52,561 nucleotides of DNA from Candidatus Woesearchaeota archaeon. Its GTDB lineage: Archaea > Nanobdellota > Nanobdellia > Woesearchaeales > JAFCFN01. The stretch spans positions 1 to 52,561 of the forward strand of contig JAFCFN010000005.1 in NCBI GenBank assembly GCA_017608625.1. Direction: 5' to 3'. Below, piece by piece: positions 479 to 49,508 of this stretch; within the stretch, counting starts at the first letter, position 1; each line of letters begins with the position of its first letter. Made by a program: the position numbers and the translations under genes. Below the pieces are notes generated by a model that was not told where the DNA came from, ran no database searches, and was given only the letters and a program-made list of their open reading frames with translations.

Positions 479-927
479 GTCTCTATAGAAAAGGGATAGC
501 AATCTGGATGTCATGGGTGCTATTAGTAGCATTTATGGTAGCTTTAAGCGCATTTATGTATAACTGGATAACAGGATACACAGAATCTTCTGCAGAAAGA
601 ATAGAGACAAGCTATAATGAGGAAAGCTGCTCAAGTGTAGCAATTAGTGTAGATGGATGTCAAAAAGCAGAAATCTTAAATATTACAATAAGCAATAAAG
701 GAGATTTAGAAATAGATAAAGTAATATTTAGATTGTATGATTTATACAATAATATAGAATCAAAAGACAAGGTTATTGCAATTAAGGCTGGTGAAACAAA
801 GCAGTTAGAATTATTAAAACAAGGAACAATCCAGAGATTAGAGAGCATTCCTATTTTAATAAAAGGGAATAAAGTGACAATTTGTAGAGACAGAATGCAT
901 ATATTTGAAGATATCACAAGCTGTTAA
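475..927 (+). CDS. Archaeal type IV pilin-like protein
   Basis: N-terminus MSLYRKGIAIWMSWVLLVAFMVALSAFMYNW resembles an archaeal pilin N-domain; translationally coupled to the upstream ORF. Confidence 0.7.
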   Translation: MSLYRKGIAIWMSWVLLVAFMVALSAFMYNWITGYTESSAERIETSYNEESCSSVAISVDGCQKAEILNITISNKGDLEIDKVIFRLYDLYNNIESKDKVIAIKAGETKQLELLKQGTIQRLESIPILIKGNKVTICRDRMHIFEDITSC

Positions 928-998
928 TTGCGAGCGTAAGCGAGCCGACCTATCGAGCAAAGCGAAGATAGGTCAAAGCATTAACCGATTTTGCGGTT
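923..998 (+). promoter_or_regulatory. Structured leader element, copy A
   Basis: GTTAAT(923-928)/ATTAAC(980-985), GACCTATC(947-954)/GATAGGTC(967-974), AACCG(983-987)/CGGTT(994-998); same layout as elements at 10.2 and 40.0 kb. Confidence 0.6.
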
Positions 999-1019
999 AT
1001 AAAAAAAGAGGTGATTAAA

Positions 1020-10200: not shown

Positions 10201-10284
10201 AGGAGGTAAAGGTTAACAAAAGGGGACTAAGCGAGCAACTTTGTTGCGAGCGCATGTCGCCTAGACGTTAACCGGCTTACGGTT
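10201..10284 (+). promoter_or_regulatory. SD - structured leader element (copy B) - start codon
   Basis: SD AGGAGGT 10201-10207; GGTTAAC 10211-10217/GTTAACC 10267-10273; AACCG 10270-10274/CGGTT 10280-10284; ATG 10285. Confidence 0.65.
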
Positions 10285-12006
10285 ATGATATTTGGAGAAG
10301 GATATTATTCTGCAATGGATGCTGAATATCAAGGTACAGGGCTAAGCCCAAAAGATATTGGTATTTCTACTCCTCCTATGAAGGATCAGTTAGAAGGGTT
10401 AAAAGCAAGAATATTTCAAGGTGCTTCAAGAGTTGAATTAGGATTTACAGGAACAGGAAAAGGTTCTATGGGGAGAGGTGCACCAACACCTGGAACTTAT
10501 GGTAAAGAAGAAAGAGAAGCAATAAGAGAGCTAGCTAAAATCAATAAAGTAGATTTAACAACTCATGCTACTGTAGGTGTTGGGGGATTAGCAGGTTTTA
10601 CAGAAAGAGGACTGGATGAAGCAACAAGAGAGAGAAATTTAAAAGAAATAGAAAGGGCAATTGATTTTGCAGCTGATACTGCAAGAGGAGGACCAGTTGT
10701 TGTACACACAGGAGAGTGGCCAAGGCCAATAGCTGAAAAGTATTCTGAATTCAAAGAATATCCGAGTGAAAAAGAAAGAGCAGTATTACATATAGTAGAT
10801 AAAAGAACAGGCGAAGTAATGGCAATAAGAAAAGACATGACTATCCATGAGCCTGTTTATAGAATAGATGAAAAAACAGGTGAGAAAATTTACGAGTATG
10901 AATACAATCCTGATGGTTCTATTAAGGGATTAAAATTCAGAGAAAGAAAATATGATGATATAGTAAAAGAAGAATTGAAAAAGAATCCTGAACTAGATCC
11001 TGAAGAAGCATTTATCAAACATTATTATGAATCTGAAGAAGCAATGGCAAGAGCTGAAAGTGTCAGATGGGCTACTGAAGCACATGAAAGAAGGAAATTG
11101 ATAGAAGAAATAGAAAAGATCCCTGAAAAGGATAGGTGGAAATTTGCAGATTTGATTGCTAAGGCAGAAGACGCAAAAAGAGATCTGAAATGGATGGAAG
11201 AAGCTGCTGTTGGTTATGGAGAAAGAGCTGAGCTTTTTAGAGGAAAAGCAGAAAACTTCAAGCCAATAGAAAAAGTAGGTTTAGAAAAATCAGCAGATAG
11301 TATTGCAAGAGCAGCTGAGTATGCAATGGAACTAACAGAGCTCAGACATCTTCCTAAACCCCTATTTGTTGCACCTGAAAATGTCTTTCCTGAGCAGTAT
11401 GGTGCTCATCCTCAAGAACTAAAAAAATTAATAGTTGAAGCAAGAGAAAAAATGGCAAAGGACTTACAAGATAGATATGGAAAAAGCGAAGAAGAAGCAA
11501 AAAGACTAGCTGAACAGCACATAAAAGCAACATTTGATGTTGGTCATGCTTATACATGGAGAAAATATTTTGAGAGGAAACCTGGAGAAACAATAGAAGA
11601 AGCTGACAAAAGATTTAACAAATGGTTGGCAAAACAAGTTGAAGAGTTAACAAAAGAAGGCATAATAGGCCATGTTCATGTTTCTGACAATTTTGGATGG
11701 GCTGATGAGCATGTTACACCAGGAAAAGGAAGGGTTCCTATAAAGGACTTTATTGAACAGATTAAAAAAGCAGGTATTAAGAATGTTATTGTTGAACCAG
11801 CTCATCAGGACTTTAAGGCAATGTTAGGAGGTTGGTCAGAGTTTGGAAGCAGCATTTATAGTGTTACAATTCCTGGAGTAAGAAGAGATACATGGACTGA
11901 TGTTGAGCACAGTTATTTTGGAAGAACAGCACCTCCTTACTATGTTGTTGGTCCATTTGCACCAAGCAAGGACTGGACTTTATGGAGCCAGACTCCACTT
12001 GAATGA
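10285..12006 (+). CDS. Xylose-isomerase-like TIM-barrel protein (sugar phosphate isomerase/AP endonuclease 2 superfamily)
   Basis: THATVGVGGLAGF, VVVHTGEW, ATFDVGHAY, HVHVSDNFGWADEHVTPGKGRVP, VIVEPAH motifs. Confidence 0.75.
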   Translation: MIFGEGYYSAMDAEYQGTGLSPKDIGISTPPMKDQLEGLKARIFQGASRVELGFTGTGKGSMGRGAPTPGTYGKEEREAIRELAKINKVDLTTHATVGVGGLAGFTERGLDEATRERNLKEIERAIDFAADTARGGPVVVHTGEWPRPIAEKYSEFKEYPSEKERAVLHIVDKRTGEVMAIRKDMTIHEPVYRIDEKTGEKIYEYEYNPDGSIKGLKFRERKYDDIVKEELKKNPELDPEEAFIKHYYESEEAMARAESVRWATEAHERRKLIEEIEKIPEKDRWKFADLIAKAEDAKRDLKWMEEAAVGYGERAELFRGKAENFKPIEKVGLEKSADSIARAAEYAMELTELRHLPKPLFVAPENVFPEQYGAHPQELKKLIVEAREKMAKDLQDRYGKSEEEAKRLAEQHIKATFDVGHAYTWRKYFERKPGETIEEADKRFNKWLAKQVEELTKEGIIGHVHVSDNFGWADEHVTPGKGRVPIKDFIEQIKKAGIKNVIVEPAHQDFKAMLGGWSEFGSSIYSVTIPGVRRDTWTDVEHSYFGRTAPPYYVVGPFAPSKDWTLWSQTPLE

Positions 12007-39990: not shown

Positions 39991-40067
39991 GGAGGTAAAG
40001 GTTAACAGACCTATCGAGCGAGCAAAGCGAGTGAAGATAGGTCAAAGCGTTAACCGATTTTGCGGTT
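39991..40067 (+). promoter_or_regulatory. SD - structured leader element (copy C) - start codon
   Basis: SD GGAGGT 39991-39996; GGTTAAC 40000-40006/GTTAACC 40049-40055; GACCTATC 40008-40015/GATAGGTC 40036-40043; AACCG 40052-40056/CGGTT 40063-40067; ATG 40068. Confidence 0.65.
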
Positions 40068-40613
40068 ATGGCTGAACGAAAATTAGTTGTTGAGAACATA
40101 AGTATAAGTTACTCTGGATTGTTTGATGTTAAAGAGTTCTATAAAATGATTGATGACTGGTTTAAAGCTAAGGGATATGATAAAGTTGTAGTGAAACATA
40201 AAGAATATAGCACTGAAACAGGAAAAAATATTGAGATTCTTCTAGCACCGCATAAAAATGTAACTGACTATATTAGGAATTTAATTAAAGTATGGATTGG
40301 GATGAGCAATATCAAAGAAGTAGAAGTTAAAAGAGATAAAACAAGATTTAAAATAAATAAAGGAGATGTCATTGTTGTTTTGGACGGCTATCTGGAATTA
40401 GATTATGAACATAGATGGGAGCAAAAGCCATTATTCTTTTTCTTAAGAGTTTTGATTGACAAGTTCATTCATAAATCAGAAATTGATAAATACGGAGAAG
40501 AATTAATAGAAGAGATTAATGAGTTTCATAATGAGATTAGATCGTTTTTAGGATTGCATAAATATGGGCCTGCAATAAGGGCAAAAACACCTGAGGTACC
40601 TGGTTTTAGATAA
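40068..40613 (+). CDS. Hypothetical protein, paralog of 39442-39963
   Basis: See paralog; ATG directly abuts the structured leader. Confidence 0.7.
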   Translation: MAERKLVVENISISYSGLFDVKEFYKMIDDWFKAKGYDKVVVKHKEYSTETGKNIEILLAPHKNVTDYIRNLIKVWIGMSNIKEVEVKRDKTRFKINKGDVIVVLDGYLELDYEHRWEQKPLFFFLRVLIDKFIHKSEIDKYGEELIEEINEFHNEIRSFLGLHKYGPAIRAKTPEVPGFR

Positions 40614-47895: not shown

Positions 47896-48010
47896 CTCTA
47901 GCACACCTCTGACAAAGAAATGTTTTTATTTTTCTTTTCTTAAGTATCACTCGTTTTACTTTTTTCCCACAACATTCACAAGTAAGAGTTGCTTCTTTAT
48001 ATTTGATCAT
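47882..48010 (-). CDS. 42-aa zinc-ribbon protein (absent from ORF track)
   Basis: MIKYKEATLTCECCGKKVKRVILKKRKIKTFLCQRCARDVIQ*; CxxC...CxxC, overlaps the ogt start. Confidence 0.7.
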   Translation of the reverse strand: MIKYKEATLTCECCGKKVKRVILKKRKIKTFLCQRCARDVIQ

Positions 48011-48072
48011 TTTATTGAAAAATGGAATTTTTCAATTCCAAAAACTCGCAATTAAGCGAGTTTTTGTTATTT
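48008..48072 (-). repeat. 65-bp double-palindrome repeat, copy 1
   Basis: 64/65 identical by eye to 49444-49508; ends at an ATG on the minus strand. Confidence 0.85.
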
Positions 48073-49191: not shown

Positions 49192-49446
49192 TTATTTATT
49201 ATAAAAAGCAGAAATAGTTTTTTTGAGTTTTTTGATATGATAAAGGGTTTGTTTGCTATGGCCTTCTGTAGCATGCCTTATAGATTCACTAAGATATTTT
49301 TTAGTCTCAGGATTATCTACAACATATTTAGATGCTTCCTCTTTGAATAATCCAAGCAACTTTATTTTTTCTTCTTTGGTTTTTGCTTTAGTTGCTTGTT
49401 TAGCTAATTCCTCAAGTTCACTTATCTTTTTGCTTAAGTTTGCCAT
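49192..49446 (-). CDS. Small helical hypothetical protein
   Basis: 84-aa ORF; start codon abuts repeat copy 2. Confidence 0.55.
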   Translation of the reverse strand: MANLSKKISELEELAKQATKAKTKEEKIKLLGLFKEEASKYVVDNPETKKYLSESIRHATEGHSKQTLYHIKKLKKTISAFYNK

Positions 49447-49508
49447 TTTATTGAAAAATGAAATTTTTCAATTCCAAAAACTCGCAATTAAGCGAGTTTT
49501 TGTTATTT
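49444..49508 (-). repeat. 65-bp double-palindrome repeat, copy 2
   Basis: See copy 1; also ends at an ATG. Confidence 0.85.

Follow-up and report, generated by a model that had tools for sequence, protein, structure and literature searches.

The structured leader before the gene starting at position 40,068 (copy C) belongs to a dispersed repeat that is lineage-specific, indeed genome-specific. This repeat of about 80-140 bp, here called unit 1, lies between a strong Shine-Dalgarno sequence (SD) and the start codon at at least eight genes of a tiny Woesearchaeota-type archaeon with a genome of 646 kb in 14 contigs. In our estimate, the chances are evenly balanced that unit 1 is mobile and palindromic, was inserted 5′ of start codons with its own SD at the 5′ end, and provides a split ribosome-binding site that forms by folding. 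The original prediction had compared copy C with the split site of phage T4 gene 25. This is still the best-fitting reading and gained support, as the layout recurs ahead of eight or more start codons, of which several are in conserved operons; a role in translation is presumptive. The prediction had missed that the element is an inserted repeat with its own SD, that its family has other members forming tRNA T-loop introns, and that it is absent from the sister species.

Anatomy of copy C

The window analyzed in this study is a contiguous stretch of 52,561 nt. Within it, every structural element predicted for copy C was read at its expected place (Table 1): GGAGGT and the ATG are separated by 71 nt, the outer helix GGTTAAC/GTTAACC encloses the inner helix GACCTATC/GATAGGTC, the AACCG/CGGTT stem touches the ATG, and the 3′ arm GTTAACC is common to two mutually exclusive helices. 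AAA separates the GGAGGT from the 5′ arm. The MFE z-score of copy C was -3.5, and folding with 40 nt of flank per side gave probabilities of 0.43 for the outer helix and 0.56 for the hairpin beside the start codon (hairpin 2).

As a lone locus, the layout of copy C is nothing unusual. The window contained 10 arrangements of GGAGG, a 7-bp helix, and ATG, and 60 Markov simulations gave a mean of 2.9 and a maximum of 8. Since the lone layout was common enough in the simulations, the case rests on recurrence, and a chance origin was rejected on the repetition across the genome. The window also contains a 65-nt direct repeat, 98% identical between its two copies, with an inverted repeat inside and a T-rich stretch after it.

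Table 1. Positions of unit 1, its parts, and related elements (window positions, or contig:position)
Feature	Position	Strand	Remarks
Copy C, SD GGAGGT	39991..39996	+	complementary to 16S 3′ end ...GGATCACCTCC
Copy C, outer helix, 5′ arm GGTTAAC	40000..40006	+	
Copy C, inner hairpin GACCTATC...GATAGGTC	40008..40043	+	arms 40008-40015 and 40036-40043; variable module; other copies have GGGGAC...GTCCCC types instead
Copy C, shared arm GTTAACC	40049..40055	+	partner 5′ GGTTAAC, or via AACC(G) the CGGTT beside the ATG
Copy C, start-codon hairpin AACCG-ATTTTG-CGGTT	40052..40067	+	stem 40052-40056 / 40063-40067; abuts ATG 40068-40070
Copy C, host gene	40068..40613	+	181 aa; conserved in Woesearchaeota/Pacearchaeota; orthologs support start codon
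Copy B, complete SD-type unit 1	10202..10287 (C2:10202)	+	before ORF at 10285
SD-type unit 1, copy C	C2:39991	+	
SD-type unit 1	C3:39400	-	
SD-type unit 1	C3:53799	-	
SD-type unit 1	C4:22228	-	
SD-type unit 1	C4:44002	-	
SD-type unit 1	C4:73885		
Unit 1, 5′ halves	C14:13279, C4:75182		contig ends
Unit 1, 3′ half	C3:97198		
Copy A, divergent unit without SD	923..1000	+	GTTAAT (923-928) / ATTAAC (980-985), compensatory outer-helix change
Divergent unit without SD	C1:58402		before ATG
Divergent unit without SD	C10:31059		
tRNA with inverted module, Cys(GCA)	C10:81487		ARAGORN: Gly(gcc); L006/L014
tRNA with inverted module, Leu-like	C3:85616		ARAGORN: Cys(gca); L026/L017
tRNA with inverted module, Lys(CTT) by reading	C5:1932		ARAGORN: CTA; L103
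Unit 2	C1:32094	-	L089
Unit 2	C11:18756		L020
Unit 2	C3:9231		L021
Unit 2	C12:9533		L082
Unit 2, sister genome G001	C76:3346		L116
Third arrangement	C11:29527	-	L100
Third arrangement	C3:33634		L104
Third arrangement	C1:64720	-	L031
Direct repeat	48008-48072, 49444-49508		

A dispersed repeat carrying its own SD

The sequence GGAGGTAAAGGTTAAC occurs seven times in the 646-kb genome at no more than one mismatch, and single matches were found in 4 of 287 other genomes of the order. This repetition is far beyond chance. We collected the family with a covariance model in addition to DNA and pattern searches. It comprises at least seven complete copies together with three partial ones at contig ends (two 5′ halves and a 3′ half), in a census that may be incomplete. 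The covariance-model search that had been proposed for the element bore out the family: E values were 1e-15 to 1e-20 for the six copies used to train the R1 model and 1e-3 for copy f, which is divergent. Copy A, which had been listed together with copies B and C, lacks a preceding SD and does not lie between an SD and an AUG.

The consensus order of unit 1 is GGAGG..GGTTAAC-[variable hairpins]-GTTAACY-loop-CGGTT-ATG. CGGTT followed by ATG was found at all eight readable 3′ ends (for S12, CGGTTAAATG), and none of the nine SD-type 5′ ends departs from GGAGG, in contrast to the divergent hairpins. The copies on contigs C14 and C4 that run into contig ends are identical over 114 nt. Since this identity begins at AAAAGGAGG, just before the SD, and the flanks differ, the SD lies inside the duplicated unit. 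According to our reading of the translations, the host genes encode L31e, a DUF655 protein, an OapB-like zinc-ribbon protein, SMC, S12, and GatD, in addition to the ORFs at 10285 and 40068.

Pattern and model searches for unit 1 in 40-288 related genomes returned weak or chance matches only; those inspected had the inner hairpin alone (G009, G036) or were sites lacking the repeated arm. In IMG/VR, the 20-nt 3′ core had no match, and none of ten exact matches to a 16-mer was followed by the GTTAACY arm. A literature search returned no description of unit 1, which is weak as evidence of absence.

Corresponding sites in the sister genome

G001 is the only other genome of the genus, with a protein identity of 70-90% at the unit 1 host genes. 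Neither pattern nor covariance-model searches found the unit 1 signature in it. Unit 1 was absent at all eight corresponding sites, and GGAGG at seven of them: the genes for SMC (...CTAAGATAATGACT), L31e (GCGTAAAAATGGC), DUF655 (...TTTCAAGATGG), copy B (...CATGGTGATCAATTATGG), copy C (TTAGTGAGGTTTTATTAATACGAACTGAAGATGG), S12, and an RHH protein downstream of S7. At the OapB-like site, G001 has a different element, unit 2, with its own GGAGGG between TAATG and ATG, where the genome studied here (G000) has unit 1. Given the seven sites without GGAGG, the SD arrived together with unit 1. In three G000 copies (SMC, DUF655, and OapB-like), an ATG stands directly before GAGG, which suggests that the start triplet may have been duplicated on insertion, the exact ends being provisional. 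Overall, the insertion history and anatomy of unit 1 are well supported.

Possible use of the distal SD

The tail of the 16S rRNA keeps CCTCC and ends in ...GGATCACCTCC, so that GGAGG is readable. The distal GGAGG is the sole SD at the unit 1 start codons; none other is present near the AUG, and its spacing is beyond normal. A leader peptide started by this SD was rejected, because no ATG, GTG, or TTG occurs in the 20 nt after GGAGG in any of 7 copies. Several copies are located in the operon contexts nusA-S12-S7, L39e-L31e, and L21e-RPB4-like-DUF655, and in these operons, internal initiation on polycistronic mRNA is expected.

The main rival explanation is that a palindromic repeat landed near start codons and was tolerated. 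As in the sister species, the genes would then be translated without an SD, from leaderless or processed transcripts or by means of termination-reinitiation. We consider this possible but on balance doubtful. The G001 orthologs start without GGAGG (SMC at ...CTAAGATAATG, L31e at GCGTAAAAATG), and an SD may therefore be unnecessary for these genes. Moreover, only 12 of 34 ORFs in the window have an SD-like tetramer within 15 nt, and the related copy at C1:58402 stands before an ATG without an SD, which counts against a role of the SD. The conservation of the SD may also be partly due to recent spread. However, GGAGG is invariant despite the divergence of the hairpins, leaderless initiation is unlikely for the S12, L31e, and DUF655 copies, whose genes are internal to operons, and reinitiation would need to traverse 40-80 structured nt.

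Predicted pairing of the ends and the SD-AUG path

The split-site reading would work as follows. Unit 1 would insert directly 5′ of a start codon and bring its own SD, and in the mRNA its terminal sequences would pair, GGUUAAC with GUUAACY. Since the same GGUU stands beside the SD on the 5′ side and beside the AUG on the 3′ side, the two compete for one AACY, which could pair with either by three-strand branch migration. Pairing of the ends would extrude the intervening hairpins and thereby bring the SD to about 5-16 nt from the AUG, irrespective of insert length. The ribosome would then start on a discontinuous site, so that the insertion would be tolerated, or even useful, before housekeeping genes.

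The pairing potential of the ends is conserved. In the outer helix, 68 of 70 pairs from 10 copies are standard. These include a compensatory change, GTTAAT/ATTAAC in copy A, and an additional G-U, GGTTAGC/GTTAACC at C1:58402. The S12 copy has an A.C mismatch, which counts against the split-site reading, and copy A has a mismatch at its outer end. Hairpin 2 occurs as AACCG/CGGTT, AACTG/CGGTT, and AACTG/CAGTT, and the compensatory CAGTT is found in a tRNA copy. The inner stem varies between GACC/GGTC and GTCC/GGAC, and the inner hairpin as a whole is entirely different between copies, sometimes with another unit nested inside.

Measured linearly, the SD and the AUG of the copies are 70-125 nt apart. 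In the outer-helix state, the computed path was 14-16 nt, or 11 nt for the 125-nt copy, with nothing further folded between the helix and the AUG; in copies c and d, the folding program adds small hairpins that make it shorter still. With hairpin 2 alone, which the folding model favors in the S12 and SMC copies, the predicted path of 17-21 nt is long and counts against the split-site reading. Hairpin 2 together with the three innermost outer-helix pairs gave 5-10 nt, at a cost of about 2.9-8.9 kcal/mol above the better alternative.

The shared GTTAACC arm had also been described as a switch-like layout, and a cis-regulatory switch would toggle the two helices under protein, ligand, or temperature control. 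Mutual exclusivity of the helices stood up, and in copy C their probabilities are nearly equal. However, copies differ in their preferred state (0.98-1.00 for the outer helix in a, b, e, and f; 0.92 and 0.68 for hairpin 2 in c and d), the host genes have no pathway in common, and the inner part is freely replaced between copies. The layout is therefore one of structural degeneracy only. Rfam gave no match in the window at the gathering threshold, and a riboswitch or known RNA was rejected accordingly. Ligand switching or regulation is unsupported, and we regard a switch as the least probable of the readings weighed here, very unlikely indeed.

Inverted relatives in tRNA genes

Three tRNA genes contain the reverse complement of the 3′ module of unit 1 within the T-loop, and a bulge-helix-bulge (BHB) motif is present at position 59/60 in each of them (TTCA[AAT]/TGAA[AGT], TTCG[AAT]/CGAA[ATT], and TTCG[AAT]/TGAA[AGT]). 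Excision of the insert restores the T-arm in all three genes, as is characteristic of BHB introns. The same genes also carry anticodon-loop introns, and since ARAGORN placed these differently, the tRNA identities in Table 1 are our own readings; the T-arm result is independent of them. Non-canonical tRNA introns at 59/60 that spread from one tRNA to another are known from the archaeal Thermoproteales, where similar T-loop inserts with BHB motifs likewise occur in different tRNA genes and spread at the DNA level has been proposed (PMC4090602, PMC4033280). In contrast to those introns, the inverted module described here also occurs in mRNA leaders, and no BHB was found there.

It was also considered that unit 1 might be a 5′-leader intron, removed from the mRNA as its inverted relatives are from the tRNAs. 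Direct GGTT repeats are present on both sides of the mRNA unit, and excision between them would leave GGAGGTAAAGGTT-ATG, with ideal spacing; the same module lies in the opposite orientation in the three tRNA genes with BHB motifs. However, a scan of the mRNA copies from SD to AUG for the canonical 3-4-3 BHB found none that fits at the two junctions, and the loose matches were registers of the GGTTAAC/GTTAACY helix. Without a credible BHB in the mRNA copies, leader splicing is unsupported, and we consider such an intron improbable.

Other repeats and motifs

Unit 2 has the order ATG-CGAGCRAAGCGAGC...poly-T...CCRTTAACGCTTTT...GGAGGGAAAAGGGTTAA-ATG; it is flanked by ATG at either end and contains a terminator-like hairpin as well as an SD of its own. 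Its host genes encode uL11, L40e-like, NUDIX-like, and OapB-like proteins. In a third arrangement, the inner hairpin is followed by a GATC linker, a hairpin, and then a normal SD and ATG; this hairpin shows compensatory changes (CAACCCG/CGGGTTG, CAAACC/GGTTTG, and CAAACTG/CAGTTTG). Other genomes of the order contain the hairpin GGGACTAAGCGARCAAAGYGAGCGCATGTCCC by itself (L092 and L095 in G009, L093 in G036), and in G009 it is located directly at gene 3′ ends. Three IMG/VR phage contigs (L153, L156, and L157) contain GGAGGTAAAGGTTAACTGAYGAG...CGAAA, which resembles a hammerhead-ribozyme motif and lies a short distance upstream of a possible start codon; it has only the 16-mer in common with unit 1 and is otherwise unrelated.

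Origin and relation to known systems

The Y1 transposase (PF01797) had no match in the genome, and five control genomes were positive; an origin from IS200/IS605 elements was consequently rejected. Since neither a transposase nor terminal inverted repeats were found, we infer transposition as the route of spread from the distribution. Like REP/MITE-like, IS200/IS605-derived repeats, the units are short, palindromic, dispersed, mutually nested, and without coding capacity. Unlike them, unit 1 is strongly biased to the position just 5′ of ATG and carries an SD.

To our knowledge, the split ribosome-binding sites described so far belong to only a handful of individual genes, chiefly those of phage T4 and E. 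coli thrS. On sequence grounds, unit 1 would behave like a T4-type split site, of which we treat it as a candidate rather than a proven member. In T4, an RNA helix brings an SD too distant from the AUG closer to it, from 27 to 11 nt in gene 25 and from 22 to 5 nt in gene 38 (PMC3014915). Unit 1 differs in its spacer of 70-125 nt, its bistable end pairing, its presence at at least eight genes, its arrival as an insert, and its archaeal host. The split site of E. coli thrS similarly accommodates a hairpin, on either side of which the ribosome-binding region is single-stranded, but thrS is a single regulated gene, not a repeat, and lacks identical competing ends (PMC3936740).

Since one genome supplies no fewer than seven intact natural variants ahead of essential genes, and the sister species supplies corresponding insert-free sites, the question of whether archaeal ribosomes bridge a structured gap of 70-125 nt becomes directly testable. 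More tentatively, unit 1 could belong to a DPANN family of small mobile palindromic units, which in mRNAs would take along a self-folding split ribosome-binding site and in tRNA T-loops, when inverted, would rely on BHB splicing. If this is true, the repeat would pay its way by bringing a translation start signal, and inserts in mRNA leaders would be linked to tRNA introns.
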